This document shows positions 1 to 64,000 of a stretch of DNA of 64,000 nt, piece after piece (the first letter of the stretch is position 1; every line of letters begins with the position of its first letter). The position numbers and the translations under genes were made by a program. The DNA is taken from contig NC_087185.1 in the NCBI RefSeq assembly GCF_035594125.1, forward strand, positions 9,626,501-9,690,500. The letters run 5' to 3'. The DNA is from Scylla paramamosain. Its lineage: Eukaryota; Arthropoda; Malacostraca; Decapoda; Portunidae. A model generated the notes under the pieces. That model ran no database searches. It was not told where the DNA came from and saw only the letters and a program-made list of their open reading frames with translations.

Positions 1-2300
1 AAGCTAGTTTCGAATCTAATTTGGGGTTCTAGTAACTAAGAATGTGAAGAAAAACTCAAAATACACGCATTTAGTAGTTATTCTGTTTCTTAATTAAGAG
101 TGTTATTCAGGAATTTCAGCATTTTGGTATCTAAGAAACTTCTCCATATACACTAGTTTTTCCGTTTTTTGCTTCGTGGTTCTAGTGAAACTATAAAATA
201 CTCATTATACACGTTTCTTGTAATGTCTTTTTGTTTCCCAATATAGAGTGCTTTGCATCCATTTTCGCGTTTTTTTTTTTTTTTTTTGGTTACAAGCTCA
301 AAAACACTTAAAATATACTTTTTTGGTAATGTTATTCTATTTCTTTATATTGGTCTGTTTGCATCCGTTTTAGCGTTTTTTACGTAAAACACTGAAAAGA
401 CACGTTTTCAGTAATTTTGTTTAGGATTCCCATATAGAGTGACTTCCATATTATTTATCGTTTTGGTGCCTAACATGCTGAAAAACACTCAAAAGACAGT
501 TTTCTTGTAAAGTCGTTTAATTTCCCCATATAGATGTCTTTGCATGCACTTTAAGGTTTGGTACATAACAGTCCGAAAAAAAAAGCTAAAATTAACTTTT
601 TCGATAATGTTCTTTTATCCACATAATTTCCTTGAATTTTAACAGAATTTTGGCATCTCGGTACCTATGAAGATAAATAACAAAAAAAATATATATTATT
701 TTCATTTATTTGATTTATTTATTTATTTTTTTGTTTTTTGTTTCTTTATAAAGAGTGTTATTTGTGAGTTTTAGCTTTTTGGTATTTAAGTAACTTAAAA
801 ACACTTATAATACACGTTTCTCGTAATGTCCTTTCGTTTCCCAAACATAGGATTCTTTGCATGTATTTAAGCGTTTTTTGTAATGTTATTGTGTTACTCC
901 ATAAAGGATTTTTTGCATTCGTTTTAGCATTTTGGTATGTAAGGAGCTCAAAAAAATTTAACGGCAAGTTCTTGGTAAAAGTTTGTTTTATTCACATGTA
1001 ATGTGATTGTTCTTCTTTAAAGTACTTTATTGCCTAACATGCTCATAAACACTCAAAAGACATTTTCTGGCAGTATAATTTTCTCCCCACATAAACCTAG
1101 TTTCGCATGCAATTTCGTGTTTTGGTATTTAAGAATGTGAAAAACACTCAAAATACACGCATTTGGTAAGGTTGTTCTGTATCTCAATCAAGAGTGTTAT
1201 TCATGAGTTTCAGCATGTTAGTATCTAAGAAACTTTTGCCTTGTGGTTGTTGTGAAACTATAAAACACTCATTATACAGGTTTCTCGTAATGTCCTTTTG
1301 TTTCCCAATATAGAGTGCTTTGCATCCATTTTCGCGTTTTTTTGTAGGTAACAGGCTCAAAAACACTCAAAATATACCTTTTTGGCAATGTTATTCTATT
1401 TCTTCATATTGGTTTGTTTGCATCCGTTTTAGCGTGTTTCTACGTAAAACACTGAAAAGACAAGTGTTAAGTGATTTTGTTTTGGATTCACATATAGAGT
1501 GACTTCCATATTATTTACTGTTTTGGTGCCTACTATGCTGAAAAACACTAAAAAGACAGGTTTCTGGTAAACTCGTTTAATATCCCTATAGAGGTGGCTT
1601 TGCATGCAATTTAGGTTTTGGTACATAACTGTCCGAAAAAAAACCTAAAATTAACTTTTTTGATAATGTTCTTTTTTCCACATAATTTCCCTGAATTTTG
1701 CCAGAATTTTGGCATCTCGTTACCTATGAAGAAGAATTACAAAAAAAAAAAGAAAATTACTTTTTTTTGTTTGTTTCTCTATAAAGAGTGTTATTTGTGG
1801 GTTTTAGCTTTTTGGTGCTTAAGGAATTTAATAACATTCATAATACACGTTTCTCGTATTGTCCTTTTGTTTCCCAAACATAGGGTTATTTGCATGTATT
1901 TAAGCGTTTTTATAGGTAACATGATCAAAAACAATCAAAATACACGTTTTTGGTAATGTTATTCTGTTTCTTCATAAAGGGTGTTTTGCATGCGTTTTAG
2001 CGTTTTGGTATGTTAGGAGCTCAAAAACACTTAAAGGCAAGTTTTTGGGAAAAGTTGGTTTTATTCACATGTAATGTGATTGCCCTGCTTTTTAGTGCTT
2101 TATTGCCTAACACGCTCAAAAACACTGAAAAGACACTTCTCTGGAAATGTCTTTTTTTTTTTTCTTTCCACATAAAGCTAGTTTCGTATGCAATTTGGGG
2201 TTTTGGTAACCAAGAATGTGAAAAACACTCAAAATACACGCATTTGGTAAGATTGTTCTGTTTCTCAATTAAGAGTGTTATTGATGAGTTTCAGCGTTTT
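1..2300 (+). repeat. Class A higher-order satellite, block 1
   Basis: About two units of an 11-monomer higher-order repeat. The diagnostic GCATCCGTTTTAGCG segment occurs near 360 and 1410, giving a period of about 1.05 kb. Successive monomers keep their own variants: TAACAAGCTC, ACGTAAAACACTG, GCCTAACATGCTG, CATAACAGTCCG, CTATGAAGAT plus an A-tract, CTTAAGGAACTT, AACATGATC, GTAAGGAGCTC, CTAACACGCTC, AAGAATGTG, and GAAACTTCTCC. This order recurs in every class A block. Short reading frames on both strands are low-complexity translations of the repeat; I find no gene. Confidence 0.9.
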
Positions 2301-2446
2301 GGTATCTAAGAATCTCAAAAACACTTATAATGCACGTTTCTCGTAATGTCCCTTTTTTTTTCCTCATTTAGGGTGCTTTGCATGCATTTTGGCATTTTAT
2401 TTTTCACGGAATAGCTGAAAAACACTGAAAATACACGCTTTTGGTA
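2300..2446 (+). repeat. Class A to class C satellite junction, left flank of LINE copy 1
   Basis: At about 2300 the class A phrase ending GAAACTTCTCC is replaced by AGAATCTCAAAAACAC followed by a TTTCTCGTAATGTCCC monomer typical of class C. The sequence then runs TTTTTCACG, AATAGCTGAAAAAC, CGCTTTTGGTAAT and enters the LINE tail. The same junction and flank precede LINE copies 2 (near 17280-17416) and 3 (near 61730-61872). That marks it as part of a duplicated cassette. Confidence 0.7.
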
Positions 2447-2546
2447 ATAAGAACATAAGAACATAAGAAATAAGTAAATATGCAAGAAGGCATCAGGCCT
2501 ACACGTGGCAGTACTTGTATGAAATATGCCTACGTATTTCCACCTA

Positions 2547-3065
2547 TCATCGCCATCTATAAATGTGTAATTTTCTCTTACAGTTGCCAAATGCCTGAGG
2601 TCTAACAGCTTGATAACTAAGAACTTCCCAATCATCTAATACTGTATTTGAAAACCAATTCCTTCCTGTTTCCTTTTTGAACATCAAGTTTTTAGGCTCA
2701 AGCCTGAAAACTTGATGTTCTATTTTTCTTGTTCTATCATGGTGACAGATTCTAAGAATTTTCCTTATGTTTCCCTTGTTATAACCCATATACCACTTAA
2801 AGACTTCTCTGAGGTCCACTCTTAACCTACGTCTCTCTAAAGAATGTAAATTTAACAGCTTGAATCTCGCTTCGTAAGGAATACTCCTCATCCCCTGTAT
2901 CCTTTTAGTCATTCTCCTTTAAAGTGATTCTAATAGACCTTTATCCTTCCTGTGATGTGGTGACCAGAATAGGACAACGTAGTCTAGATGAAGTCTGACC
3001 AGCGCTAAATGTAACTTTAATATTACTTCGGGAGCTTTACTTTTAGCACTCCTGAAAATGAATCA
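2547..3065 (-). pseudogene. LINE copy 1 C-terminal region of the reverse transcriptase ORF
   Basis: Translation shows the post-RT region common in CR1/jockey-like elements: a LALVRLHLDY-like start, FWSPHHRKDKGLLES, MTKRIQGMRS, LHSLERRRLR, FKWYMGYNKG and TGRNWFSN. An adjacent frame carries FIDGDDRW near 2550-2590, the expected end of the protein. The frame switch between these pieces shows a frameshift. A minus-strand TGA at 3063-3065 interrupts the expected Ser-Val-Leu-Gly-Phe-Ile stretch, and copies 2 and 3 have it too. A 42-bp palindrome at 2679-2720 is inserted inside the region. Non-functional. Confidence 0.8.
2679..2720. repeat. Near-perfect 20-bp inverted repeat in LINE copy 1
   Basis: The left arm at 2679-2698 (GAACATCAAG...AGGCT) and the right arm at 2701-2720 (AGCCT...CTTGATGTTC) are reverse complements with one mismatch and a 2-base loop (CA). 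At the same place copies 2 and 3 have only the left arm, followed by TGAACCCG. The right arm is therefore new in copy 1 and is best read as a local template-switch duplication. It puts extra residues into the translated C-terminal region. Confidence 0.85.
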
Positions 3066-3192
3066 TAATACACTATTTGCTTTGTTTCTGGCCACTTTGC
3101 ATTGCTTTCTTAGACGGAGTTCGGAGCTAACTTTAAATCTCAAATTTTTTTCTTACCCTGAACCTACCAGAACTTGGTTGTTCATTGTGTAA

Positions 3193-3532
3193 CTACTGTG
3201 TGGGTTTCTTTCTACTTACGCTAAGTGCTTTGCATTTGTTGATATTAAAATGCATTTGCCATCTGTCTGTCCATTCGTTCATCCTATCCAAATCTGCCTG
3301 CAAGTCGATGGTATGCGATTCTGACCTAATTAATCTACATACTCTCGTGTCATCCGCAAATTTACTAATAACACTACTAATTCCACTATCCAAGTCATTG
3401 ACATATATTACAAACAACGTCGGCCCTAATACTAATAATCCCTTTGTCACCCCACTAATTACTTGACCCCACTCGGATTTAGAGCCGTTTATTACAACAC
3501 TGCCGCCTGCCGCTTGGCCATGACCTTATCCA
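3193..3532 (-). pseudogene. LINE copy 1 reverse transcriptase palm, motif B/C part only
   Basis: Translation gives GLLVLGPTLFVIYVNDLDSG followed by SKFADDTRVC. The FADD catalytic box (RT motif C) lies near 3349-3360 and is intact here, followed by RIRSESHTI-like and DRWQMHFNINKCK segments of the palm/thumb. The usual PQGS of motif B reads Thr-Lys-Gly-Leu-Leu, with one extra residue. The ORF breaks at about 3532, where copies 2 and 3 carry a further ~413 bp encoding motif A and the finger region. Copy 1 therefore lacks the first catalytic aspartate. Dead gene fragment. Confidence 0.85.
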
Positions 3533-4060
3533 GATCACTTATAACCTTTTTCCAATTCTTAAATACTCTGGAATATATTTGATCTGGTCCTGGTGACTTG
3601 AACTTTTCAGCTTATCTATCTCCTGTTCCACTATCTCTTTAGTTATGGTAATATCTGTCAGCTTCTCATTCTCTTCTACTCTAAATATCTTCTCACTATT
3701 CTGCAAAATCTGCATGTTTTCCTGGGCAAAGACAGTTAAAAAATACTCGTTCACAATTTTACTAATCTCCTCCCAAGAACTAAGCAGGTCCCATTCTGCT
3801 GTCTTTAAGGACCTATTGTTTCTCTATTCTTCGTCTTATATGCCTGATAAAATCCCTTGGGGTCCATCTTCGCTTCGCTGGCTACCTTTAATTCATAACT
3901 ATTTTTAGCTTTCCTTGTTGAACTCCTGACTTTTCTAATTCATTATATTATGGTCTTAAAACCACTTCCCCTGTCTTTAATCTCATATATACTTCTCTTT
4001 CGCCCTATGTAGTGTTTTAACCTCAGTCATCCATTTAGGACCATTTTTCTGTAAGTGATG
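3533..4060 (-). pseudogene. LINE copy 1 connector upstream of the RT domain
   Basis: Reading minus-strand frames gives MTEVKTLHRA, KASEAKMDPKGFYQ-like, EISKIVNEYFLTVFAQ, EENEKLTDITITKEIVEQ and DKLKSS, then in another frame SPGPDQIYSRV. These are typical of the linker between endonuclease and RT in CR1-like elements. The SPGPDQ box lies out of frame with the preceding DKLKSS near 3597-3605, a 1-bp-type frameshift shared by all three copies. The reading upstream toward 4060 is also broken by stops. Confidence 0.75.
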
Positions 4061-4105
4061 TTCCCTAACTGTCCTGAATGTAATTTTTCAACGAAATATT
4101 TATTT

Positions 4106-9119
<5,014 letters not shown>

Positions 9120-12100
9120 ACATACAGGGTGCTTTGCATGCACTTTGGTGATTTAGCACCTAAAAAGCTCAAAAACATATAAAAGACGTTTTTGGTAATG
9201 TTGTTCTGTTTCTAGATATAGTGTGTTATTGACGTTTTTTTAGGGTTTTTCTTTTTTTACCTAAGAAGCTGAAAATACTCATAATACTCTTTAAATATCT
9301 TTTATTATCCAATACCGTGATATTTCTATTGAATTTCACGTTTTGGTTTCTAACAAGCTGGAAAACGCTCAAATCACACTTTTTTTTTTGTAATGTATCC
9401 CCATAAAACGTGTTTTCCACGCGGTTTAGCGTTTTGGTACATAAGAAGCTCAAAAACACTCAAAAAATATCTTTCTGGTGATGTCGCTCCGTGCTTTGCA
9501 TGCATTTTGCAGTTTTGGTAGATAAGAAGCTCAAAAACACTCAATAAACACGTTTTATAGAATGTTTTTCTGTTTCTCTATAAAGGAAGAAGCTAAAAAA
9601 CACTAAAAATACATGTTTTTGGTTATATTGTTTGCTTTTCCAGTATAGAGCGTTTTTGTACATAAGATTTTCAAAAACACTGAAAAAGAGTTGTTTTTGG
9701 TAATCTCGTTCGGCTACTAAAATGGTGATTTCATTCATTTTGCAGTTTTGATAGCTAAGAAGCTCAACAACACTCAATATGGTCTTTTTTTTTTTTGCAT
9801 TTTTTTTCTTTCTCCATGAAGGATTTTTTATATGCACTTTTAGCGTTTTGGTAAATAACAAGCTCAAAACACTTTTAATACACGTTTTAGATAATGTTCT
9901 GATTTCTCTATGTAGGGTGTTTTGTATGCATTTTGGCGTTTTGGCACTTAACATAGTTATAATGTTGTTTTGTTTCTCCATATAGATTCCTATTCATGTG
10001 TTTTAGCGTTTTGGTACATAAGAAGCTAAAAAAAAACGCTCATAATACACGTTTCTGTTAATATTGTTTCCTTTAGACATATCAAATCATTCATTTTGGC
10101 GTTTTAATACCTAAACCTAACAATCTGGAAAACACACAAATCATACGTTTTTGGTAATGTTCATTTTCTCTCTAAAGGGTATTTAACACGTGTTTTAGCG
10201 TTTTGGTACGTAAGAAGCTTAAAAAAAAATACAGTTTTGATATTTTATAGTGAATGTTTTTACCGTTTGGTGCCTAATATCCTCAAAAAACACCCTTTTG
10301 ACAGGTTTCTGGGAATGTCGTATTCTAACCCCGGATAGGGTGATTTGTATATATTTTGGAGGGTTGTTACATAAAAAGCTGGAACTACTGAAAAGATGCT
10401 TTTGGTATTGTTGTTTGCTATTCACATATAGGGTAATTTGCGTACATTTTGGCGTTTTGATACCTAACAATCTTAATAACACTCATAATACACCATTTTA
10501 GTAATTTTTTTTTTTTTTTTGTCATATAGGGTGCTTGTCTGCATTTGACGTTTTAGTACGTAACATGGCAAAAACACTCATAATACACGTTTTTGGTAAT
10601 GTTGTTCTATTTTTCCATATAGAGAGCGATTCACGTAATTTAGTGTTTTGGTATCAATAATGTTGAAAAACACTTATAACACACGTTTTTGTTAATATCG
10701 TTTCGTTTCCCAGTAACGGATACTTTGGATGCATTTTGGCGTTTGTTACCTAAATAGCTCAAAAACACTCAAAACACACGTTTTTCTTAACATAGTTTTG
10801 TTTCACCTTAAAGGGTGTTTTACATATGTTTTGGTACGTAAGAAGCTTAAGATTTCTTAAAAGACACGTTGTTGATAATGTTGCTTTGTTTCCCTCTGCT
10901 TTCTAGCGTTTTCGTGCCTAATATGCTCAAATCACACAAATTACACGTTTCTGGTGATGTCGATTCGCTACTCAAATAGGGTACTTTGCATGCATTTTCA
11001 CGTTTTGGTACCCAACAAGTTGGAAAACAATGAAAAGACAAATTCTCGGTTATGTACTTGTTTTTCCATGAACAACGTTTTGTATGCGTTTCTGCGTTTT
11101 GGTACTAAGAAGCTGAAAAACTTTCAAAAGACACGTTTTTGTTATTGTTATTTGGTTTTGCCTTATTGGGAGTTTGCATGCACTTTAGCGTTTTGGTAAA
11201 AACACTTATAATGCAGGTTTTTGTAATATTATTCTGTTTCTTCTTATAGGGTGCTTTATATGCATTTTAGCATTTTGGTACCTAACATTGAGAAAAGCAC
11301 TCATAATACAAGTTTTTGACGATGCTGTTCTGTTTCTCAATATAGTGATATTCACGTGTTTTTAGCGTTTTGGTACAGAAGTTATAAAACAATTATAATA
11401 CACGTTTCTGTTAATATCGTTTCGTTTCCCCATATCGGGTGCTAATCATGGATTTTGGTGTTTTGTTACCTTACAAGCTCAAAAACAATGAAGAAACACA
11501 TTTTTTGGTAATGTTGTTCTGTTTCTCTATAAACAGTGTTACACTGTTTTTAGACTTTTGGTACGGAAGAAGCTCAAAAACACTCAAAAGACTTGTTTTT
11601 GATAATGTTTTATTTTCCCATATAGAGTGTTTTCAATGTTTTTATAGTTTTTTTTGTGGCTAATATGCTAAAAAAAAAAAAACACAGAAATGACACATCT
11701 CTGGGAATGCCGTTTCGTTAACTCAAATAGGATGCTTTGCATGTGTTTTATTATTTTGGTACCCAGCATGCTGGAAAAAAAAAAAACCCAAAACACGTTT
11801 TTGGCAACGTTGCTCTGTTTCTCCATAAAGAGCGTTTCGCATGTTTGAACTTTTTGGTATGTTACGAGCTTAAAAAAAAAAAAAAAAAAACATAACGCAC
11901 GTTTTTGTATCCAAAATGCATATAAAGCAATCTGTATGAGTGCTTTGTATGCATTTTGGAGTTTTGGTACCTAAACACAAAGAAAAACACTCACAGTAGG
12001 TTTTTGGTAATGTTATTCTGTTTCTCCATATATACAAATATTTGCGCGTTTTAGCGTTTTGGTACATAAGAAGATAAACCCTCAAAATACACACGATGAT

Positions 12101-14200
12101 AATGTTATTTTGTCTTCCCATGTAAAGTATTTTTCATGTGTTTTAGAGTTTTGGTGCTTAATATGCTCAAAAACATCCAAATGGCACGTTTTCTCTTAAT
12201 GTCGTTCTAGTATCTAACCAGCTGGAAAGTATTAAACACACACGTTTTCAGTAATGTTAATAGGTTTCTCAATAAGAGGTGTTTTGATCGCGTTGTTAAA
12301 AGACAAGTTTTTTTTTTTGCAATGTTGTTTGCTTTTCTCAAATAGAGTGCTTTGCATGCACATTATCGTTTTGGTAAATAACAAGCTCAAAAAAACACTC
12401 TTAATATACTTTTCTGTTAATATCGTTTTATTTCAAAATATCGGGTAATTTGCATGCATTTTGGCGTTTTGGTACCTTTCAAGCTCAAAAATACTCAAAA
12501 CACCCGTTTTTGGTAATGTTCTGTTCCTCCATAAAGATTGTTTTGGAGCGTTTTAGCGATTTGGTACGTAATAAGCTCAAAAACACTCAAAAGACACGTT
12601 TTTGATAATGTTTTATTTTCCCATGTATAGTGTTTTCCATTCTTATCAGCGTTTTGATGTAAAAAAAAAAAAACACCCAAATGACACGTTTCTGGTAAAA
12701 TCGTTTTATTACCCTAAATAGGATATTTTGCATGCGTTTTGTCGTCTTTGTACCTAACAAGATGGAAAACGCTTAAAACACACAAGTTCGTAATGCTGTT
12801 CTACTTGCTCATGAATGGCGTTTTGCATGCATTTTAACGTTTCAGTACGTAAGCAGAAAAAAAAAAAAAACAATCAAAAAGAATGTTCTTTACTTTTCCC
12901 ATACAGCGTGCTTTGCATGCACTTAAGCGTTTTGGTACCTAACAAGCACAAAAACACTCATTATATTTTTTTTCTAATAAATTTGTTCTGTTTCTTCATA
13001 TTGGCTACTTTGTATGCATTTTGGCGTTTTAGTACCTAACACAGGGAAAAACACTCATAATACACGTGTTTGGTAATGTTCTGTTTCTTTGATAGGGTGA
13101 TTTGTATGCATTTTGGAGTTTTATTATCTAACATTGCGGAAAAAAAATTGTAATACACGTTTTTCGTAACATTGTTCTGTTTCTTTATATAGAGTGTTAT
13201 TCATATATTTTTGAGTTTTGGACAAAATCTCATAATGCACTTCTCTGTTAATATCGTTTCGTTTCCTAATATCGGGTAATATGCATGCATTTTGGTGTTT
13301 TGCGATCTAAAAAAGCTGAAAAACATTCAATACAAATGTTGTTTCTCCATAAAAAGTTATTTTCCATGCGTTTGAGTGTTTTGGTACGCAAGAAACAAAT
13401 TTTTCTGGTTAATTTTCTGGTAATATCGTTCCGTTACTGCAACGAGGGTTCTTTGCATGTATTTTGGCATTTTGATACTTATGAAGCTCAAAAACGCTCA
13501 AAATACACGTTTTTGGCAATGTTGTCCTGTTTCTGCATTACACGTTATTTTGTATGTGTTTTAACGTGTTTGTACATATGAAAAAGAAAAAAAAAATTTA
13601 ATTTTTTTTTTCCCATATAGGGTGCTTTGCTTGCACGTTCTCGTTTTAGTACCTAACAAGCTCCAAAATTTTCATAACACAAGATATTGGTAATGTTGTT
13701 CTGTTTCTTCATTTAGGGTTCTTTGTATGCATTTTCTCGTTTTGATACCTGACTTGGGAATATTGTTAATATCGTTTCGTTTCCCTATATAAGGTATTTT
13801 GCATGTATTTTTTGAGTTTTATTACCTAATAGGCTCAAGAAAATAATCAAAACACACCTTTTTGCTAACGTTCTTCTGTTTCTTTAATAATGGGTGGTTT
13901 CGACGCATTTTAGAGTTTCGGTACGTAATAAGCTCAAAACACACAAAAAATTTTTTTCATGAAGTTTTGTTTTCTTATATAGAGTATTTTCCATATCTTT
14001 TTTTTTTTCTAGCGTTAGGTGCCTACTATGCTTAAAATTAATAAAAAACGTTTCGGGAATGTCGTTTCGTTACCCGAAATAGGGTCCTTTACATATATTT
14101 TGAAAATTTTAAATATAACAAGCTAGAAAACACTCAAAGCACACGTTTTTGGTAATGTTTTTCTGTTTCTCAATAAACGGCGTTTTGTATGCGTTTTAGC
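9120..14200 (+). repeat. Class B satellite, second part
   Basis: Continuation of class B. The TGTTAATATCGTTTCG marker recurs near 10055, 10689, 11408, 12414, 13245 and 13765, and the GGGAAAA-type monomer near 10561, 11283, 11970, 13036 and 13747. The implied unit is about 0.6-0.75 kb (7-8 monomers), with frequent expansion or loss. Homopolymer A runs of 10-18 bases replace the GCTCAAAAACAC core in several monomers, near 11669, 11873 and 12661. The block passes into class A at 14150-14215 within a shared GCGTTTTAGCGTTTTGGTA stretch. No gene is seen. Confidence 0.78.
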
Positions 14201-17200
14201 GTTTTGGTATGTGAGGAGCTTTAAAACACTTAAAGGCAAGTTCTCGGTAAAAGTTGGTTTTATTCCCATGTAATGTGATTGCCCAGCTTTTTAGTGCTTT
14301 ATTACCTATCACGATCAAAAACACTTAAAAGACACTTTTCTGCTATTGTCATTTTTTTCCCACATAAAGCTAGTTTCGCATGCAATTTGGGGTTTTGGTA
14401 ACTAAGAATATGAAAAGCACTCAAAATACACGCATTTGGTAAGGTTATTCTGTTTCTTAACGAAGAGTGTTATTCATGAATTTCAGCATTTTGGTATCTA
14501 AGAAACTTCTCCATATATACGAGTTTTTGCGTGTTTTTCCTTGTGGTTCTTGTGAAACTACTAAACACTCATTATACACGTTTCTCGTAATGTCCTTTTC
14601 TTTCCCAATATAGAGTGCTTTCCATCCATTTTCGCGTTTTTTGTAGGTAACAAGCTCAAAAACACTCAACATATACCTTTTTGGTAATGTTATTCTATTT
14701 CTTCATATTGGTTGGTTTGCATCCGTTTTAGCGTTTTTCTACGTAAAACACTGAAAAAAACATGTTTTCAGTAATTTTGTTTTGGATTCCCATATAGAGA
14801 TACTTCCATATTATTTTATCGTTTTGGTGCCTAACATGCTGAAAAACACTCAAAAGACAGGTTTCTGGTAAAGTCGTTTAATTTCCCCATATAGGTGGCT
14901 TTGAATGCACTTTAGGGTTTGGTACATAACAGTACGAAAAAAAGCTAAAATTAACTTTTTTCATGATGTTCTTTTTTCACATAATTTCCCTAAATTTTGC
15001 CAGAATTTTAGCACCTTCGTACCTATGGAAATTAATAAAAAAAAAATATTCTATTTGTTATTTATTTATTTTTCCTCTATAAAGAGTGTTATTTTCTGGT
15101 TTTAACTTTTTGGTACTTAAGGAACTTAAAAACACTCATAATACACGTTTCTCGTAATGTCCTTTCCTTTCCTAAACATAGGGTTCTTTGCATGTATTTA
15201 AGCGTTTTTATAAGTAACATGATCAAAAAAATCAAAATACATATTTTAGGTAATGTTATTATATTTCTTCATATTGGTTGGTTTGCATCCGTTTTAGCGT
15301 TTTCCTACGTAAAACACTGAAAAGACACGTTTTCAGTAATTTTGTTTTGTATTCCCATATTGATTGATTTCCATTATATTTATCGTTTTGTTGCTTAACA
15401 TGCTGAAAAACACTCAAAAGACAGGTTTCTGGTAAAGTCGTTTAATTTTCCCATGTAGGTGGCTTTGCATGTACTTTAGGGTTTAATACATAACAGTCCG
15501 AAAAAAAAGCTAAAATTAACTTTTTGGATAATGTTCTTTTATCACATAATTGCCCTGAATTTTGCCAGAATTTTGGTATCTCGGTACCTATGAATATGAA
15601 TAACAAAAAAAAAAAAAAAATCCTATATTTTTTATTGATTTATTTATTTTTTTCTAAATAAAGAGTGCTATTTGTGGTACTTAAGGAACTTAAAAACACT
15701 CATAATACACGTTTCTCGTAATGTCCTTTCCTTTCCCAAATATAAGGTTCTTTGCAGGTATTTAAGCGTTTTTTTAGATAACATGATCAAAAACACTCAA
15801 AATATATGTTTTTGTAATGTTATTCTGTTTCTCCATAAAGGGTGTTTTGCATGCGTTTTAGTGTTTTGGTATATAAGGAGATCAAAAACACTTAAAGTCA
15901 AGTTCTTGGTAAAAGTTGGTTTTATTCCCATGTAATGTGATTGTCCTGCTTTTTAGTGCTTTATTGCCTATCACGCTCAAAAACACTCAAAAGACACTTT
16001 TCAGGTAATGTCATTTTTTTTCCCCAAATAAAGTTAGTTTCGCGTGCAATTTTGGGTTTTGGTAACTAAGAATGTGAAAAACTCTCAAAATACACGCATA
16101 TAGTAAGGTTGTTCTGTTTCTCAATTAAGAGTGGTTTTCATGAGTTTCAGCACTTTGGTATCTAAGAAACTTCTCCATACACACGAGTTTTTTGCGTTTT
16201 TTGCCTTACGGTTCTTGTGAATCTATAAAACTCATTATACACGTTTCTCGTAATATCTTTTTGTTGCCCAATATAGAGTGCTTAGCATCCAATTTTGTTT
16301 TTTTTATAGGTAACAAGCTCAAAAACACCCAAAATATACCTTTTTTGGTAATGTTTTTCTATTTCTAGATATTGTTTGGTTTGCATCCGTTTTAGCGTTT
16401 TTCTACGTAAAACGCTGAAAAGACATGTTTTCAATAATTTTCTTTTACATTCCCATATAGAGAGACTTCCATATTATTTATCGTTTTGGTGCCTAAAATG
16501 CTGAAAAACACTCAAAAGACAGTTTTCTTGGAAAGTCGTTTAATTTCCTCATATAGATGGCTTTGCATGCACTTTAGCGTTTGGTACATAACAGTCCGAA
16601 AAAAAAAAAGCTAAAATTAACTTTTTCGATAATGTTCTTTTTTCCACATAATTTCACTGAATTTTAACAGAATTTTGGCATCTCGGTACCTATGAAGATA
16701 AAAAAAAAATTAGTATTTTTTTCTTTATTTTACTTTTTTTTTTTTTTGTTTCTGTGTTATTTGTGTTATTTGTGGGTTTTAGCTTTTTGGTACTTAAGGA
16801 ACTTAAAAACACTCATAATACACCTTTCTCTGAAAGTCCTTTCGTTTCCCAACCATAGGGTTCTTTGCATGCATTTAAGCGTTTTTATAGTTAACATAAT
16901 CAAAAACACTCAAAATACATGTTTTTGGTAATGTTTTTTCTGTTTCTCCATAAAGGATGTTTTACATGCGTTTTAGCGTTTTGGTATGTAAGGAGCTCAA
17001 AAACACTTAAAGGCAATTTCTTGGTAAAAGTTGGTTTTATTCACATGTAATGTGATTGCCCCCTTTTTTTTAGTGCTTTATTGCCTAATACGATCAAAAA
17101 CACTCAAAAGACACTTTTATGGTAATGTCATTTTTTTTCCCCATATAAAGCTATTTTCGCATGAAATTTTGGGTTTTGGTAACCAAGAATGTGAAAAACA

Positions 17201-17270
17201 CTCATAATACACGCATTTGGTAAGGTTGTTCTGTTTCTCAATTAAGAGTGTTATTCAAGAATTTTAGCGT
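14200..17270 (+). repeat. Class A higher-order satellite, block 2
   Basis: The block enters class A at the GAGGAGCTTT / CTTAAAGGCAAG monomer. GCATCCGTTTTAGCG occurs near 14707, 15274 and 16376. The 0.57-kb gap between the first two is a shortened unit in which the AACATGATC monomer joins directly to the one ending in TTCATATTGGTTGG. The 1.10-kb gap is a normal 11-monomer unit. A-tract plus TTTA-rich stretches occur at about 15040, 15605 and 16700, as in every full class A unit. No gene is seen. Confidence 0.88.
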
Positions 17271-17529
17271 TTTGGTATCTAAGAATCTCAAAAACTCTCA
17301 TAATGCACGTTTCTCGTAATGTCCCTTTTTTTCCCCATATGGGGTGCTTTGCATGTATTTTGGCATTTTTTTCACGTAATAGCAGAAAAAATACTGAAAA
17401 TACACGCTTTTGGTAATAAGAACATAAGAAATAAGTAAATCTGCAAAAAGGAATCAGGCCTACACGTGGCAGTACTTGTATGAAATATGCCTACCTATTT
17501 CCACCTATCATCCCCATCCATAAATGTGT

Positions 17530-19430: not shown

Positions 19431-19480
19431 GGGATATTCCCTAACTGTCCTGAATGTAATTTATCAACGAAATATTTATT

Positions 19481-48200: not shown

Positions 48201-51200
48201 TGGTAACTAAGACTGTGAAAAGCACTCAAAATACACGCATTTAGTAAGGTTGATCTGTTTTTCAATTAAGAGTGTTATTCATGAGTTTCAGCATTTTGGT
48301 ATCTAGGAGCCTTCTCCATATACAGGAGCTGTTGTGTTTTTTGCCTTTTGGTTCTTTTGATCTATGAAAAACTCATTATACACTTTTCTTGCAAAGTCCT
48401 TTTGTTTTCTAATATAGAGTGCTTTGCATCAATTTTCGCGTATTTTGTAACAAGCTCAAAAACACTCAAAATATACCTTTTTGGTAATGTTTTCTATTTC
48501 TTGATATTGGTTGGTTTGCATCCGTTTTAGCGTTTTTCTACGTATAACACAAAAAAACACGTTTTCAGCAATTTTGTTTTGGATTCTCATATAGAGTGAG
48601 TTCCTTATTATTTATCGTTTTGGTGCCTAACATGCTGGAAAACACTCAAAAAACAGATTTCTGGTAAGGTCGTTTAATTTCCTCATATAGGAGGCTTTGG
48701 ATGCACTTTAGGATTTGGTACAAAACTGTCCGAAAAAAAAAGCTAAAATTAACTTTTTTGATAATTTTCTTTTATGATATAATAGCTCTGAATTTTCGCA
48801 GAATTTTGGTATCTCCGTACCTATGAAGATAAAAAAAAAAAAAAAAATCCTATTTTTTTTTGGTACTTAAGGAACTTAAAAACACCTATAATACACGTTT
48901 CTCGTTGTGTCCTTTCGTTTCGCAAACATAAGGTTCTTTGCATGTATTTAAGCGTTTTTATAGATAACATGATGAAAAACACTCAAAATATATGTTTATG
49001 GTAATTTTATTCTGTTTCTCCATAAAAGGTGTTTTGCATGCGTTTTAGCGTTTTGGTATGTAATGAGCTCAAAAACACTTAAAGGCAAGTTCTTGGTAAA
49101 AGTTGTTTTTATTTCCATGTAATGTGATTGCCCTGCTTTTTAGTGTTTTTTTTTTTTTCCTAAGACGCTCAAAAACACTCAAAAGACACTTTTCTGTAAT
49201 ATCATTTTTTTCCCCACATAAAGCTAGTTTTGCATGGAATTTGGGGTTTTGGTAACTAAGAATGTGAAAAAAAACAAAACACAGGCATTTAGTAAGGTTG
49301 TTCTATTTCTTAATAAAAAGTGTTATTCATGAGTGTCAGCATTTTGGTATGTAAGAAACTTTTCTAATACACACATTTGGTAAGGTATTTCTGTTTCAAA
49401 ATTTAAAGTGTTATTCATGAATTTCAGCTTTTTGGTATGTAAGAAACTTCTTTATGCACACGAGTTTTTGAGTTTTTTACTTTGTGGTTCTTGTCAAACT
49501 ATAAAACACTCATACACGTTTCTCGTAATGTCCTTTTCTTTGCCAATATAAAGTGCATTCCATCCATTTTTGCATTTTTTGTAGGTAACAAGCTCAAAAA
49601 CACATCAAAATATATCTTTTTGATAATGTTATTCTATTTCTTCATATTGGTTGGTTTACAGCGTTTTTCTACGTTAATCACTGAAAAGATACGTTTTCAG
49701 TAATATTGTTGAAATGCTGAAAAACACTCAAAAGACAGGTTTCTGGTAAAGTCGTGTAATTTCCCCATATAGGTGGATTTGCATGCATTTCCAGGTTTGT
49801 ACATAACTCCGGAAAAAAGCTAAAATTATTTTTTATATAATGATTTTTTTTTTTTATAAAATCTCCATGAATTTCGCCAGAATTTTGGCATCTCGGTACC
49901 TATGAAGATGAATAACAAAAAAAAAAAATGTTCTCTCTATAAAGAGTGTTATTTGTGGGTTTTAGATTTTTGGTACTTAAAGAACTTAAAAATACTCATA
50001 ATACACAATTTTCGTAATGTCCTTTTTTTTATACACACATAGGGTTCTTTACATGTATTTAAGCGTTTTTATAGGTTACATGATCAAAAACACTCAAAAT
50101 ACATGTTTTTGGTAATGTTATTCTGTTTCTCCATAAAGGGTGTTTTGCATGCGTTTTAGCGATTTGGTATGTAAGGAGTTAAAAAACACTTAAAGTCAAG
50201 TTCTTCGTAAAAGTTGGTTTTATTTCCATGTAATGCTTTTTAGTACTTTGTTGCATATCACGCTCAAAAACACCATAAAAGACATTTTTTTCGTAATGTC
50301 ATTTTTTCCCCACATGAAGGTAGTTTCGCATGTAATTTGGGATTTTCGTAACTAAGAATGTGAAAACCACTCAAAAAGCACAATTTGGTAAGGTAGGTCT
50401 GTTTATCGATTAAAAGTGTTATACATGCATTTCATCATTTTGGTATGTAAGAAATTTCTCTATATACACGAGTTATTGCGTTTATTGCCTTGTGTTTCTT
50501 TTAAAACTATAAAACTCTCATTATACACGATTCTCGTAATGTCCTTTTGTTTCCTAATATAGAGTGCTTTACATCCATTTTTGCATTTTTTTGTAGGTAA
50601 CAAGCTCAAAAACACTCAAAATATATCTTTTTGGTAATGTTATTCTATTTCCTAATATAGGTTGGTTTGCATTCACTTTAGCGTTTTTCTACGTAAAACA
50701 CTGAAAAGACACGTTTTCAGTAATTTTGTTTTGGATTCACATATTGACTGACTTCCATATTATTTATCGTTTTGGTGCCTAACATGCTGAAAAACACTGA
50801 AAAGACAGGTTTCTGGTAAAGTCGTTTAACATCTCTATATAGGTAGCTTTGCATGCACTTTAGTGTTTGGTACATAACAATCCGAAAAAAAAGCTATAAT
50901 TAACTTTTTGGGTAATGTTCTTTTTTCCACATAAATTCCCTGAATTTTGGCAGAATTTTGGCATCTCGGTACTTATAAGGATGAATAACAAAAAAAAAAT
51001 CCCATTTTTTAATTTTTTTGTTTATTATTATTTTTTTTCTAATTAAAGAGTGTTATTTGTGGGTTTTAGCTTTTAGGTACTGAAGGAACTTAATAAAACA
51101 CTCATAATACACGTTTCTCGTAATGTCCTTTCGTTTCCCAAACATAAGGTTCTTTGCATGTATTTAAGCGTTTTTATAGATAACATGATCAAAAACACTC

Positions 51201-51396
51201 AAAATACATGTATTTGGTAATATTATTCTGTTTCTCCATAAAATGTATTTTGCATGCGTTTTAGCGTTTTGGTTTGTAAGGAGCTCAAAAACACTTAAAA
51301 GCAAGTTCTTGCAAAGATTTGGTTTTATTCCCATGTAATGTGATTGCCCTTCCTTTTAGTGCTTTATTGCGTAACACGCTCAAAACACTCAAAAGA
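45206..51396 (+). repeat. Class A higher-order satellite, distal part before the inversion
   Basis: Regular units with markers near 45202, 46292, 47397, 48510, 49644 and 50661, spaced 1.02-1.13 kb. The unit at about 49.7 kb is the 10-monomer subtype. A monomer duplication near 49280-49460 repeats the TTATTCATGA / TATGTAAGAAACTT phrase. A small palindrome lies at 46915-46935. The block stops inside a CTCAAAACACTCAAAAGA monomer at the inversion breakpoint. No gene is seen. Confidence 0.87.
46915..46935. repeat. Short palindrome at a monomer insertion
   Basis: TTTACCAA, a GGTTC loop, then TTGGTAAA. Normal units read CTTAAAGGCAAGTTCTTGG here; this one has CTTAAAGGTAAAGG inserted, followed by the new left arm. 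It looks like a template-switch scar of the same type as the hairpins at 2679 and 27001. Confidence 0.75.
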
Positions 51397-51876
51397 TATG
51401 CAAGACCTCGCATATAAGGAAATTAAAGACCTTACCAAAAATCTGTCTTTTGAGTGTTTTTCAGCATGTTATGCACCAAAACGATAAATAATAAGGAACT
51501 CACTCTAGGTGGGAATCCAAAAGAAAATTACTGAAAACGTGTCTTCTCAGTGTTTTACGTAGAAAAACGCTAAAACTGATGCAAACCAACCAATATCAAG
51601 AAGCAGAAAAACATTACCAAAAATGTATATTTTGAGTGTTTTTGAGCTTGTTACCTAGAAAAAAAAACGCAAAAATTGATACAAAGCACTCTATATTGGA
51701 AAACAACGGGACATTGCGAAAAAAGTGTATAATGAATGTTTTATAATAAAAAAAAAACAACAACGCAAAAAACGCAAAAACTCGTGTATATGGAGAAGTT
51801 TCCTAGATACCAAAATGCTGAAACTCATGAATAACACTCTTAATTGAGAAACAGAACAACCTTACTAAATGCGTGT
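51397..51876 (-). repeat. Inverted ~480-bp segment of class A satellite
   Basis: The plus strand here reads as the reverse complement of about five consecutive class A monomers. Examples are TGAGTGTTTTTCAGCATGTT, ACGTAGAAAAACGC, GAGCTTGTTACC, CTCGTGTATATGG and CTTAATTGAGAAACAG. On the minus strand the normal order is restored. Its variants (TGAGAAGAC, GAGTTCCTTATTATT) match the subtype seen near 28-31, 35-37 and 48.5 kb. It is flanked by two direct copies of the CTTAAARGCAAGTTCTTG to CACGCTC monomer, at about 51290-51396 and 51877-51985. Confidence 0.93.
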
Positions 51877-53313
51877 CAAAAACATTAAAAGGCAAGTTCT
51901 TCGTAAAAGTTGGTTTTATTCCCATGTAATGTGATTGCCCTGCTTCTTAGTGCTTTATTGCCTAACACGCTCAAAAACACTCAATAGACACTTTTCTTAA
52001 AATGTCATTTTTTTCCATATAAAGCTAGTTTCGCATGGAATTTGGAGTTTTGGTAACTAAGAATGTAAAAAAACACTCAAAATACACGCATTTAGTAAGG
52101 TTGCTTTGTTTCTTGATTAAGAGTGTTATTCGTGAGTTTCAGTATTTTGGTATCCTAGAAACTTCTCCACACAGACGAGTTTTTGCGTTTTTTGCCTTGT
52201 GATTCTGGTGAAACTATAAAACATTCATTATACACAGTTCTCGTTATGTCCTTTTTTTTTCTAATATACAGTGCTTTGCATCCATTTTTGCGTTTTTTTT
52301 ATGTAACAAGCTCAAAAACACACAAAATATACTTTTCTGGTAATGTTATTATTCTATTTTTTCATATTGTTTGGTTTGCATCCGTTTTAGCATTTTTTTA
52401 GGTAAATCTTTTAAAAGACACGTTTTCAGTAATTTTGTTTTGGATTTCCATATAGAGTGACATTCATATTATCTATCGTTGGTATGATGCCTAACATGCA
52501 GAAAAACACTGAAAAGACAGGTTTCTTGTAAAGTGGTTAAATTTTCCCAAATAGGTGGCTTTGCATACATTTTATGGTTTGGTACATAACTCCGAAAAAA
52601 AAGGTAAAATTAACTTTTTCGATAATGTTCTTTTTTCCATATAATTTCCCTGAATTTTGGCAAAATTTTGGCATCTTGGTACCTCTGAACATCAATAAGA
52701 AAAAAAAAATGCCATTTATCTATTTATTTATTTATTTTTCTCTATAAAGAGTATTATTTGTAGGTTTTAACGTTTTGGTACTTAAGAAACTTAAAAAACA
52801 TTCATAATACACATTTCTCGTAATGTCCTTTCGTTTCCCAAATATAGGGATCTTTGCATGTATTTAAGCGTTTTTATAGGTAACATGATAAAAAAAAAAA
52901 CACTCAAAAACACTTGTTTTTGGTAATGTTATTCTGCTTCTCCGTAAAGGAGTGTTTTGCATGCGTTTTAGCGATTTGGTATGTAAGGAGCTGAAAAACA
53001 CTTCAAGGCAAGTTCTTGGTAAAAATTGGTTTTATTCCAATGTAATATGATTGCCCTGCTTTTTAGTGCTTTATTGCCTAACACGTTCAAAGACACTCAA
53101 AAGACACTTCTGGTAATGTCATTTTTTTTCCCACATAAAGGTAGTTTCGCATGCTATTTGGGGTTTTGCTAACTAAGAATGTGAAAAAAAACACTCAAAA
53201 TACATGCATTTGGTAATGTTGTTCTGTTTCTCAATTAAGACTGTTATTCATGAGTTTCAGCATTTTGGTATCTAAGAAACTTCTTTATATACACGAGTTT
53301 TTGCGTTTTTTGC

Positions 53314-61719: not shown

Positions 61720-61872
61720 CAGCGTTTTGGTACCTAAGAATCTCAAAAACACTCATAATGCACGTTTCTCGTAATGTCGCTCTTTTTCTTCATATATGGT
61801 GCTTTGCATGCATTTTGGCATTTTTTTTCACGTAATAGCTTGAAAACACTGAAAATACACACTTTTGGTAAT
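61720..61872 (+). repeat. Class A to class C junction, left flank of LINE copy 3
   Basis: GTTTTGGTACCTAAGAATCTC, a CTCATAATGCACGTTTCTCG monomer, a CATATATGGTGCTTTGCATG monomer, then TTTTTTTTCACGTAATAGCTTG and CACTTTTGGTAAT before the LINE tail. It matches 2300-2446 and 17270-17416. Confidence 0.75.
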
Positions 61873-61989
61873 AAGAACATAAAAACATAAGAAATAAGTA
61901 AATCTGCAATAAGGCATCAGGCCTACACGTGGCAGTACTTGTATGAAATATGGCTACCTATTTCCACCTATCATCCCCATCCATAAATG

Positions 61990-62473
61990 TGTAATTTTCT
62001 CTTACTGTTCCCAAATGCCTCAGCACTAACAGCTTGATTACTACGTCCGTTCCAATCATCTACTACTCTATTTGAGAACCAATTCCTTCCTGTCTCCTTT
62101 TTGAACATCAAGTTTTCAGGCTTGAACCCGTTTTTCTTGTTCTATCATATTTACAGATTCTAAGAATTTTCCTTATGTTCCCTTTATTATAACACATATA
62201 CCACTAAAAGACTTCTATTAGGTCCACTCTTAACCTACGTCTCTTTAAAGAATGTAAATTGAACAGCTTGAATATCGCTTCGTAAGGAAAACTCCTTATC
62301 TCCTGTATCCTTTTAGTCATTTTTCTTTGTACTGATTCTAATAGACCTTTATCCTTCCTGTGATGCGGTGACCAGAATTGGACAGCGTAGTCTAGATGAA
62401 GTCTGACCAGCGCCAAATGTAACTTTAATATTACTTCGTAAGTTCTACTTTTAGCACTCCTGAAAATGAATCA
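61990..62473 (-). pseudogene. LINE copy 3 C-terminal region
   Basis: Translation shows ALVRLHLDYAVQFWSPHHRK, DKGLLESVQRKMTKRIQ, EIRSFPYEAIFKLF, HSLKRRRLR and DLIEVF, then stops or shifts frame near 62204. The DLIEVF here agrees with the DLREVF of copy 1. Copy 2 is frameshifted at this spot. Non-functional. Confidence 0.8.
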
Positions 62474-62560
62474 TAATACACTATTTGCTTTGTTTCTGGC
62501 CTCTTTGCATTGCTTTCTTAGATGGAGTTCAGATATAACCTTAAATCTCAAATCTTTTAC

Positions 62561-63230
62561 TTACCCTGAACCTACCAGAACTTGGTTGTTCATTGTGTAA
62601 CTACTGTGTGGGTTTCTTCTACTTACGCTAAGTACTTTGCATTTGTTGACATTAAACTGCATTTGCCATCTGTCCGTCCATTCGTTCAACCAATTCAAAT
62701 CTGCCTGCAAGGCGATGGTATGCGATTCTGACCTAATTAATCTACATATTCTCGTGTCATCCGCAACTTTACTAATTCCACTATCCAAGCCATTGACATA
62801 TATTACAAACAACATCGGCCCTAATACTAATAATAACTTTGTCACCCCACTAATTACTTGAACCCACTCCGATTTAGAGCCGTTTATTACAACACTCTGT
62901 CGCCTGACGCTTAGCCATGACCTTATCCAATCTAAACACCTCATCTCTCTCGTGCGCCCTAACATTTCTCAGTAGCCGCTTTGCTAAAGTCCTGATATAG
63001 GATGCCATAACTATCATTATTATCTGCCGCCTTGTAAACTTTACTGTATAAACTTACCAAGTTTCTCAGGTAAGACTCTCCATTCCAGAAGCCGTGCTGT
63101 AACTGAGTTATCAAGTTATGTTTGTCTAAATGCTCTTAAATGTTCTTCGCTATTATTGACTCCATTATTTTACATTCAACAGAAGTTAAAGTGACAGGTT
63201 AGACGCTAAAGTTTTATCTCCTTTCTTAAA
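62561..63230 (-). pseudogene. LINE copy 3 reverse transcriptase palm
   Basis: Shows REMRCLDWIRSWLSVRRQSV, INGSKSEWVQVISGV, then the altered motif B (TKLLLVLGP), FVIYVNGLDSG and a shortened approach to the catalytic box. A 12-bp deletion relative to copy 1 turns SSVISKFADD into SKVADD at about 62756-62776. The two aspartates remain. A 23-bp deletion near 62977 removes the KVPHQRLL part after motif A and breaks the frame. Dead gene fragment. Confidence 0.85.
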
Positions 63231-63299
63231 AGTAGGTACTATATTCGCCTGCCTCCAAATTACCGATACCTCACATGACTAAAGTGATTTCCTAAGGAC

Positions 63300-63850
63300 A
63301 GAAACTAACAGATTACTTATAACCTTTTTCCTTTCCTTAAATACTGTGGAATATATTTCATCTGGTCCTGGTGACTTGAACTTTTCAACTTATCTATTTC
63401 CTGTTCCACTATCTCTTTTAGTTATGGTAATATCTGTCAGCTTCTCATCCTCTTCTACTCTAAATATCTTCTCACTATTCGGCAAATCCTGCATGTTTTC
63501 CTGGGCAAAGACAATTAAAAAATACTCGCTCACAATTTTACTAATCTCCTCTCAACAACTAAGCAGGTCCCATTCTGCTGTCTTTAAGGAACTATTGTTT
63601 CTCTATTCTTCGTCTTATATGCCTGATAAAATCCCTTGGGGTTAATCTTCGCTTGGCTGGCTACCTTTACTTCATAACTATTTTTAGCTTTCCTTGTTAA
63701 ACTCCTGACTTTTCTAATTCATTATATTATGGCCTTAAAACCACTTCCCCTGTCTTTAATCTCATATATACTTCTCCTTCGCCCTATGTAGTGTTTTAAC
63801 CACAGTCATCCATTTAGGATCATTCTTCTGCGATCTTTTTCTTCTGTAAG
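63300..63850 (-). pseudogene. LINE copy 3 connector upstream of RT
   Basis: Minus-strand reading shows NEYFLIVFAQENMQDLPNSE, EDEKLTDITIT, then after the shared frameshift SPGPDEIYSTVFK. Further 5' come AKINPKGFYQ-like and MTVVKTLHRA-like segments with stops, the same layout as the other copies. Confidence 0.73.
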
Positions 63851-63900
63851 GGATGTTCCCTAACTGTCCTGAATGTAATTTATCAACGAAATATTTATTT

Positions 63901-64000
63901 CGCTTCTTCATAAAGGTTGTTTTGCATGGGTTTTAGCGTTTCTGTACATAAGAACCTATAAAACACGTTTTTAGTAATGTTGTTTTGTATTCCTTTATAG
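63901..64000 (+). repeat. Class C satellite, right flank of LINE copy 3
   Basis: CTTCATAAAGGTTGTTTTGC, GGGTTTTAGCGTTTCTGTAC, AAGAACCTATAAAACACG and TTTTTAGTAATGTTGTTTTG match 4106-4200 and 19481-19575. The window ends in this monomer, so the rest of the block is not visible. Confidence 0.85.

Follow-up and report, generated by a model that had tools for sequence, protein, structure and literature searches.

Layered organisation of a 96-bp satellite and its LINE-tagged composite units in a probable (peri)centromeric block of Scylla paramamosain

Introduction

What kind of locus is built largely from one short tandem repeat, and how did its copies come to be layered, interrupted and spread over several chromosomes? 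The question is raised by a 64,000-nucleotide stretch of the Scylla paramamosain genome (contig NC_087185.1, positions 9,626,501 to 9,690,500 of the forward strand), called the window below. A preliminary description had read it as three satellite classes, A, B and C, derived from one ~95-bp monomer and layered in the manner of centromeric satellites. The literature surveyed held little on decapod centromeres at the sequence level, and none of the titles and abstracts listed pointed to this satellite. The analysis reported here indicates that the window is probably part of a decapod (peri)centromeric satellite block, whose form reflects amplification in place, with inversions, together with exchange of blocks from chromosome to chromosome.

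Results

A profile HMM identified an AT-rich family of 96-bp monomers that occupies 80.3% of the window (590 copies, 585 on the + strand and 5 on the - strand). Autocorrelation of the window gave its top signal at 96 bp (21.3 sd), with additional peaks at 191 and 287 bp and at lags 2 and 10. Mean pairwise identity among monomers was 0.647, compared with 0.279 in shifted register (523 of the 590 HMM matches used). Each 96 bp carries about ten A/T tracts in helical phase (96/10 = 9.6 bp), in higher-order and un-homogenised copies alike: power at 9.6 bp was 15.0 in class A and 6.3 in B and C combined (Markov controls, 1.55 and 2.03), and 1.07 and 0.69 in DNA from the arms of the window's own contig, C35, and in the LINE. 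Such phased tracts may aid chromatin packing. Folding of a monomer dimer was unremarkable (-38.5 vs. -34.5, sd 3.9, for mononucleotide shuffles with RNA parameters), no tRNAs or Rfam families at gathering score were found, and an exact 20-mer of the higher-order repeat had 0 matches in viral contigs, a set that possibly leaves out records of this genome. An estimate of 40 Mb for the satellite is rough, as it presumes the window's density of one 20-mer. The features of the window are as follows.

1 to 2448, + strand: class A, 11-mer higher-order repeat (HOR) units up to LINE copy 1 (monomer order, unit comparison)
2449 to 4099, - strand: LINE fragment copy 1, tail of two repeats, interior ~415 bp shorter than that of copy 2
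4100 to 6600, + strand: class C, un-homogenised 96-bp monomers behind LINE copy 1 (limits from monomer-type labels)
6600 to 13900, + strand: class B, 96-bp monomers that have not been homogenised; TA/AT microsatellites occupy 6607-6831 and 8941-9105
13900 to 17416, + strand: 11-mer HOR units up to LINE copy 2 (monomer order, unit comparison)
17417 to 19475, - strand: LINE fragment copy 2, one-repeat tail
19476 to 21850, + strand: class C behind LINE copy 2, with HOR directly next and no B stretch
21850 to 61871, + strand: main 11-mer HOR array (monomer order; lag 11 in 21850-51380)
29837 to 36297, + strand: 6.46-kb supra-repeat copy 1, six units of 1.0-1.1 kb (autocorrelation, BLAST, unit comparison)
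36298 to 42757, + strand: 6.46-kb supra-repeat copy 2 (unit comparison with copy 1)
38379 to 51145, + strand: segment with a duplicate ~135 kb away at C35:9,800,001, 99.1-99.7% identical
51381 to 51877, - strand: inverted HOR piece of 497 bp and five monomers, 88-90% identical to direct copies in the window
61872 to 63894, - strand: LINE fragment copy 3
63895 to 64000, + strand: start of class C behind LINE copy 3, ending at the window edge

In class A, monomers follow the order H-B-A-D-E-C-B-A-G-F-I, forming the 11-mer unit of ~1.1 kb that had been proposed. Identity at a lag of 11 monomers was 0.766, whereas the full set of pairs gave 0.637 (permutation z 25.0, from 292 monomers in 21850-51380). 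Periodicity is thus very strong at the monomer level, yet the raw autocorrelation peak at 1.1 kb is weak (4.3 sd), probably because the length of the HOR unit varies. Above this layer, a peak at 6461 bp (8.1 sd) confirmed a 6.46-kb repeat of six A units: those at 29837, 30925, 32043, 33046, 34081 and 35184 recur 6461-6464 bp further on, and the pairs are 99.5-99.8% alike, far closer than the monomers inside a unit (64.7%). Unit-by-unit comparison gives the better figure here, as the raw BLAST value of 95.4% extends into a diverged third part. The duplicate at C35:9,800,001 has no counterpart of window positions 43195-45959, a 2.8-kb difference. Autocorrelation peaks were present at all three of these scales, and the layering from monomer to 11-mer to six-unit repeat stands.

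Classes B and C fared otherwise. The consensus sequences of the three classes agree pairwise at 93-95 of 96 positions (B and C vs. A, 94-95 of 96), and an HMM built from A alone detected 71 monomers in B, 27 in the class C stretch behind LINE copy 1 (C1) and 23 in that behind copy 2 (C2), compared with 0 in 60 Markov-shuffled segments. A single ancestral monomer and one family for all three classes are thereby upheld. The units of ~0.6-0.75 kb and ~0.4-0.7 kb ascribed to B and C did not emerge as clear periods. The best lag in B was 8 monomers (z 2.9); C1 gave lag 7 (z 1.8), and C2 lags 17 (z 2.3) and 5 (z 2.2). The top autocorrelation peak in B, C1 and C2 alike was 96 bp, and the minor peaks at 420, 671 and 692 bp in C1 (z 3.0-3.1) and at 582 bp (z 3.8) and 486 bp (z 2.7) in C2 are the best of ~1100 lags each.

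A monomer tree was drawn from 18 chosen A monomers, 61 from B and 22 from C1, with C2 and short monomers left out; 10 of its 95 inner branches are well supported. Monomers of one class tend to group together (20 label changes vs. 36.1 when shuffled), but neither A, B nor C is one clade, and the HOR types are nested within monomers of B and C. Consensus, lag tests, tree and the colinear composite pieces described below speak strongly against B and C as separate satellites, and the proposal of three satellite classes is not sustained: A is a higher-order repeat, and its monomer family also makes up B and C, as stretches that have not been homogenised. Column conservation in B is uneven (sd 0.156 vs. 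0.047 expected) and correlates with agreement among the A types (r 0.63), a pattern that shared ancestry alone could explain; we do not claim selection.

The three window copies share the same satellite/LINE junction, before 2449, 17417 and 61872, and the 3' end of the LINE carries a short tandem repeat tail of the ACATAAGA type, present there once or twice. Open reading frame pieces of copy 3 (62561-62965; E 3.9e-6, 27.2 bits, under the cut-off of 29.6) and copy 2 (18099-18494; E 1.8e-4, under the Pfam cut-off) resemble RVT_1; the single piece scanned in copy 1 (2547-2912) gave no match. Cassette copies within the window are 85-88% alike by BLAST, and their LINE parts 93.0-94.1% with gap columns skipped. 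As had been described, the cassette occurs three times with the same junction, the third copy cut at the window end. Its order was given as A-C-LINE-C; because no more than about one partial monomer separates the last HOR-type monomers from the insertion, A-LINE-C is the better description.

The location of the satellite was determined by sampling. On C35 (17.1 Mb), six neighbouring ten-kb samples out of 18 contained it, between 9.3 and 11.0 Mb, and a shuffled control gave 0; the other 12, at 0.2-8.8 and 12-16 Mb, were satellite-free, 5 of these being 17-67% N. Twelve further 500-bp probes gave 4 positives (9.4, 10.2, 10.6 and 10.8 Mb), 6 zeros (9.1, 9.2 and 11.2-11.8 Mb) and 2 that were all N. 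These samples place one internal block of 1.7-2.0 Mb on C35. On C8, probes detected satellite at 6, 7 and 8 Mb and none at 5, 9 and 12 Mb (2 of the 8 were all N). Among the matches listed, typed satellite matches fell on 38 of contigs C1-C47 and on none of the other nine; 24 of the 38 had at least two, all within 3.82 Mb or less, and 14 had a single typed site. The gaps between typed sites on C41 (3.64 Mb), C17 (2.65 Mb), C1 (1.73 Mb) and C15 (1.66 Mb) were not sampled end to end.

Arrays within the blocks are much interrupted, as four of six in-block 3-kb samples (on C1, C2, C3 and C6) had only 0-3% satellite and lay in other repeats. Along the C35 block, HOR and monomeric stretches alternate; simple core-and-flank layering was not seen. 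The monomeric samples at 9.3, 9.52, 10.0 and 10.4 Mb had no strict match of at least 300 bp to the window, and these samples therefore represent monomeric DNA other than the window's B.

The junction proved informative beyond the window. Genome-wide, 572 exact copies were counted, compared with 0 for the control, and the first 100 listed of these form one block on each of C1-C6. Among the same 100 positions, distances of 14.4, 20.2 and 34.6 kb occur repeatedly on C1 and C3. For 6 of 18 testable one-repeat junctions, a two-repeat junction on the same strand lies 14.9-15.4 kb upstream, which is also the arrangement in the window; six control bins gave 0 each. Of the 100 two-repeat junctions listed, 6 had such a partner. 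Pairing of this kind is thus one form of the composite and not necessarily the main one. At three of the six paired places (on C8 and C2), 4-kb pieces were taken from the positions expected to hold class B, and all three were colinear with B at 89-95%, matching window positions 6.8-11.0 kb; one C8 piece is 98.2-98.9% identical to the C2 piece. In the window, B and C lie inside a larger composite with the order A-LINE-C-B-A-LINE-C. A LINE fragment trapped in the satellite in this way suggests copying of large segments from one chromosome to another, and whole composite blocks, of which pieces were compared, may have moved.

HOR variants are distributed differently. Among the 40 of 11948 candidate matches to the 6.46-kb repeat that were scored, all 13 full-length matches at 98-100% lie on C35 (5 +, 8 -), a chromosome-specific variant as in alpha satellite; those elsewhere reach 92-95%, the best being 95% on C34. 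The HOR unit at 951 resembles a unit on C11 (L007) at 95.8%. Such between-chromosome loci are best matches to a query and biased towards similarity; blind 3-kb samples yielded no usable HOR units. The likening of the window to centromeric satellites holds up, given the single internal block on C35 and C8 and a high-identity HOR variant confined to C35 among the scored matches.

Discussion

Anatomy, localisation on the sampled contigs, common junctions and the pattern of identities were observed directly. From its position and repeat type, the block would serve as a centromere, carrying CenH3 and the kinetochore. It could instead be pericentromeric heterochromatin only, with CenH3 located elsewhere, for example on a TE-rich or short sequence nearby. 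Satellite on both strands with many strand switches, arrays interrupted by other repeats, interleaved HOR and monomeric DNA and the lack of a CENP-B box all fit that explanation, which we nevertheless regard as rather unlikely: homogenisation within C35 is local and very recent (98-100%), which in primates accompanies active arrays (PMC2729386), and the other readable C35 samples are without satellite.

Other explanations concern the repeats themselves. Mis-joined or duplicated contigs could produce nested repeats artificially, and both the two 6.46-kb copies at 99.5-99.8% and the 10-kb duplicate 135 kb away resemble collapsed or duplicated haplotypes. Such an artefact is very unlikely in view of the graded identity (98-100% on C35, 92-95% elsewhere), the copies in both orientations, the 2.8-kb difference between duplicates and the changes of their own that the C8 and C2 block pieces carry. 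That A, B and C are three independent families with mere low-level similarity is harder still to credit. HOR order is present in A and not clearly in B or C, tree labels cluster, and C has its minor peaks at 0.42-0.69 kb; against this, the near-identical consensus sequences and the absence of a single clade weigh strongly, as do the B and C monomers that the A-only HMM detects. Finally, the same junctions on many contigs might reflect the internal tandem array of a Helitron- or Maverick-like mobile element, spread by transposition. This we find scarcely conceivable, since the sampled contigs have one block each with none in readable arm samples, and what the contigs have in common at the junction is a LINE tail lying within a monomer rather than the end of an element; the search for element proteins covered the three LINE pieces.

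A (peri)centromeric block shaped by amplification and transfer probably arose as follows. A diverged array of 96-bp monomers would have come first, from which eleven monomers were captured as a ~1.1-kb HOR that expanded. A LINE fragment would then have inserted into a monomer, most simply once, and its neighbourhood (HOR, LINE and irregular monomers) may have been co-amplified as composite units of ~15-20 kb, copies of which arrived in the satellite blocks elsewhere in the chromosome set. The route could have been break-induced replication, gene conversion or reinsertion. Local amplification, in either orientation, would subsequently have multiplied variants particular to each chromosome, leading on C35 to the 6.46-kb six-unit repeat.

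Primate alpha satellite likewise comprises multi-monomer HORs with variants specific to single chromosomes, monomeric DNA of the same family that is older, and layers common to non-homologous chromosomes, there read as interchromosomal transfer (PMC2729386, in part). The likeness is one of architecture, the sequences not having been aligned: the crab monomer is 96 bp rather than ~171 bp, its HOR and monomeric DNA are interleaved, and a LINE fragment sits within the composite block on several chromosomes. A CENP-B box is present in part of the monomers of primate alpha satellite; in the 64 kb analysed here the motif has 0 matches at up to one mismatch, compared with 2.8 expected. The crab satellite would work like alpha satellite while lacking two of its defining features, the ~171-bp monomer and the CENP-B box.

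Among decapods, PlSAT3-411 of the crayfish Pontastacus leptodactylus is also AT-rich and lies at the (peri)centromere of all chromosomes, but has a 411-bp unit and was mapped by FISH; the term "higher-order" occurs 0 times in the text of that paper (PMC7859515). Melters et al. (2013) described HOR centromere repeats in diverse animals and plants from Sanger reads and from PacBio reads reaching ~7 kb, lengths insufficient to reveal units of 6 or 15-20 kb, and their text lacks the terms crustacea, arthropod and Daphnia. In rye, a TE and adjacent tandem repeats were amplified together as in the crab, although in subtelomeric heterochromatin of a plant, whereas the crab block is internal and common to several chromosomes (PMC4857426).

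One satellite in one assembly thus displays both modes of the alpha-satellite model, recent chromosome-specific amplification and blocks common to chromosomes, and the LINE insertion with its exact junction copies is a tag by which transfer can be counted. A bolder proposal, which we consider improbable, is that the monomer sets the centromere by DNA shape with no protein box, and that LINE-tagged composites are the exchange currency of non-homologous centromeres; if so, waves of interchromosomal transfer would be directly countable in an invertebrate. Because the classes are positions in composite units that all derive from one monomer family, annotation of arrays like these should change, as should the choice of informative probes.

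A 96-bp monomer and its 11-mer unit

Autocorrelation of the window gives a peak at 96 bp, in agreement with the monomer of ~95 bp that the preliminary description had proposed. Monomers of this length cover 80.3% of the window (n=590, 585 on one strand), and their pairwise identity, calculated for 523 of the 590, is 64.7% vs. 27.9% in a shifted register. Clustering at 75% identity assigns 584 of 590 monomers to 61 clusters. The class A higher-order repeat (HOR) is built from nine large clusters in the fixed order H-B-A-D-E-C-B-A-G-F-I, with monomer types B and A each occurring twice; monomer identity at lag 11 in the main array lies 25 sd over permutations, which bears out the 11-mer unit claimed earlier.

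AA/TT steps recur with a period of 9.6 bp, one tenth of the monomer, so that each monomer carries ~10 A/T tracts in phase with the helix. Power at this period is 15.0 in class A and 6.3 in B and C combined, vs. 1.07 in the arms of C35, the contig that carries the window (9626501-9690500), and 0.69 in the LINE. Two monomers (191-192 bp) come close to the nucleosome repeat length. By eye, the monomer consensus holds two CGTTTTGGTA-like motifs.

Classes B and C

The preliminary description had also given classes B and C repeat units of their own. Relative to the class A consensus, that of B differs at 1 and that of C at 2 of 96 positions, and an HMM built from A alone detects B and C monomers (0 matches in 60 shuffles). 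No clear period was found in B (lag 8, z 2.9) or in the class C stretches C1 (z 1.8) and C2 (z 2.3). Class C does show minor autocorrelation peaks, with z up to 3.8, between 0.42 and 0.69 kb. A tree was built from 101 monomers of all classes except stretch C2, with good support for 10 of its 95 inner branches. In it, none of A, B and C forms a single clade, the nine HOR types join at separate points among B and C monomers, and the class label changes 20 times vs. a least possible 2 and 36.1 after shuffling. On these consensus, period and tree results, we read B and C as an un-homogenised array that is older than the HOR and supplied the eleven monomers captured in it.

Columns conserved in B monomers tend to equal those common to the nine HOR types (r 0.63). 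Class B also contains pure TA/AT dinucleotide tracts at 6607-6831 (112.5 copies) and 8941-9105 (82.5 copies), both with 100% matches.

Probable local amplification of a 6.46-kb repeat

The proposed 6.46-kb repeat of six units is present in two full copies, delineated by unit comparison, with 99.5-99.8% identity per unit:

Full copies of the 6.46-kb repeat
29837-36297, copy 1, six units
36298-42757, copy 2, six units

Another copy of part of the array lies at a distance of ~135 kb (99.1-99.7% identity) and lacks 2.8 kb. The assembly (1.21 Gb, 234 contigs) was searched with a 1.2-kb query from the array, and 40 of 11948 candidates were scored; the best 40 of 57 rows comprise 15 on C35 and 25 on other contigs. 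Among these 40, the 13 full-length matches at 98-100% are all on C35 (5 on the plus and 8 on the minus strand), and outside C35 the top match is 95% (C34), the remainder 92-93%. Since full-length matches at 98-100% are confined to C35 and other contigs reach at most 95% in the rows listed, the 6.46-kb level looks chromosome-specific. Oppositely oriented copies of the query lie near one another at C35 9.796/9.801 Mb and 10.6165/10.6179 Mb; these near-identical HOR pairs (C35:9795960/9801131 and C35:10616532/10617884) are probably recent inverted duplications. Because copies on C35 occur in both orientations, we infer that growth of this level includes inversion, an outcome not expected from simple unequal crossing-over.

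A LINE insertion and proposed exchange between chromosomes

The three LINE fragments of the window share one end point within a monomer, and their LINE parts are 93.0-94.1% identical to one another, vs. 82-83% for an independent insertion on C3. The simplest reading of this shared end point and identity is that the window copies derive from one insertion, subsequently co-amplified. A 24-base pattern spanning the satellite/LINE junction has 572 exact genome copies (reversed control, 0); a form with a two-repeat tail, as in window copy 1, has 391 copies and one with a one-repeat tail, as in copy 2, has 39. When a LINE copy at C8:7.0 Mb (L052) was compared with window 2723-4528 and 16763-20149, it had the ~415-bp internal gap of copy 1, yet was closest to copy 2 (95-96%), as would be a mosaic from conversion.

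In the window, the one-repeat junction follows the two-repeat junction by 14.97 kb. Junction pairing was compared on C2, C3, C4, C8 and part of C12, which covers 18 of the 39 one-repeat junctions; six of the 18 (five on C8, one on C2) have a two-repeat partner at 14.9-15.4 kb, and six other distance bins contain 0 partners each. The converse is weaker, with a one-repeat partner for 6 of 100 two-repeat junctions among the matches listed. If the paired junctions are arranged as in the window (A-LINE-C-B-A-LINE-C), class B DNA is expected between them. Of the six places, two on C8 and the one on C2 were sampled with a 4-kb piece each, and every piece aligns colinearly with 6.8-11.0 kb of the window (93.8-95.3%, 89.2-93.6% and 90.1-93.9% identity). 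Each has a TA tract at the counterpart of 8941-9105; the pieces stop short of 6607-6831. One C8 piece (L066) is 98.2-98.9% identical to the C2 piece, vs. 90-96% to the other C8 piece (L065), which is itself 90-95% identical to the C2 piece. Thus, among the pieces compared, the closest relative of a C8 block piece is on a different chromosome. A strict match to the window was not found in the other monomeric C35 samples (9.3, 9.52, 10.0 and 10.4 Mb).

Units flanking the cassette on C4, C11, C14, C17, C37 and C44 match a unit of a different chromosome in 18 of 19 cases at 94.7-97.5% (L008_3973 is the exception, at 89.6%) vs. 86.8-89.4% to their own neighbours, in a sample biased by the choice of loci for similarity to the query. 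Junction spacings of 14.4, 20.2 and 34.6 kb, found repeatedly on both C1 and C3 among the matches listed, perhaps represent an extra level over the composite block.

We propose that local amplification with inversion would make portions of each chromosome's array uniform, while composite blocks, judged from the pieces compared, would spread by transfer between chromosomes and the LINE would travel in them as passenger and tag. Such a mechanism resembles the 'interchromosomal transfer/amplification' scenario outlined for alpha satellite (PMC2729386). HOR satellites are known from many species (PMC4053949), and AT-rich pericentromeric satellites are already on record for decapods (PMC7859515); none of the literature titles and abstracts listed points to the present satellite. 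Its nesting is unusually clear, and its LINE tag can be counted.

Location and abundance

An arginine kinase ORF on C20 matches PDB chain 5zhq_A, from Scylla paramamosain, with one substitution over ~300 residues at the C-terminus; with 49 linkage groups (PMC6459939) and 49 chromosomes (PMC12406289) also in agreement, the mud crab is the most likely source. Of eighteen ten-kb samples along C35, six neighbouring ones (9.3-11.0 Mb) are positive and 12 are without satellite (5 of these partly N); twelve 500-bp probes, 2 of them all N, place the block edges at 9.2-9.3 and 11.0-11.2 Mb. On C8, satellite is present at 6, 7 and 8 Mb and zero at 5, 9 and 12 Mb (2 probes all N). Probes distant from blocks on C1, C3 and C6 gave zero satellite in 7 cases and were all N in 3; those at C1:22.0 and C5:20.25 are positive. 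Among the matches listed, typed satellite occurs on 38 of the contigs C1-C47, of which 24 have multiple sites, spanning <=3.82 Mb, and 14 a single one; nine have no match, and three small contigs (C110, C124, C216) also carry it. A HOR 20-mer has 17,130 exact genome copies (control, 0) and 27 in the 64 kb of the window, a density that suggests, roughly, a genome total of ~40 Mb. The satellite is most likely (peri)centromeric, with a putative centromere function.

Satellite content is 0-3% in four of six 3-kb samples from within blocks (C1, C2, C3 and C6). Those from C1 and C6 have an element in common (97.6% identity), the C2 sample resembles it at 87.5% across 1.0 kb, and the C3 sample contains a relative of the window LINE. 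An element is common, over 2.3-2.9 kb and at 96-98%, to L047 (C1:19.0 Mb), L051 (C6:12.2 Mb), L018 (C35:9.3 Mb) and L024 (C35:12.0 Mb); it breaks up satellite on several contigs and also occurs outside the block. By eye, its start is a putative LINE ORF, and positions 1-600 of L049 (C3:20.3 Mb) hold a candidate GIY-YIG endonuclease stretch from a Penelope-like element.
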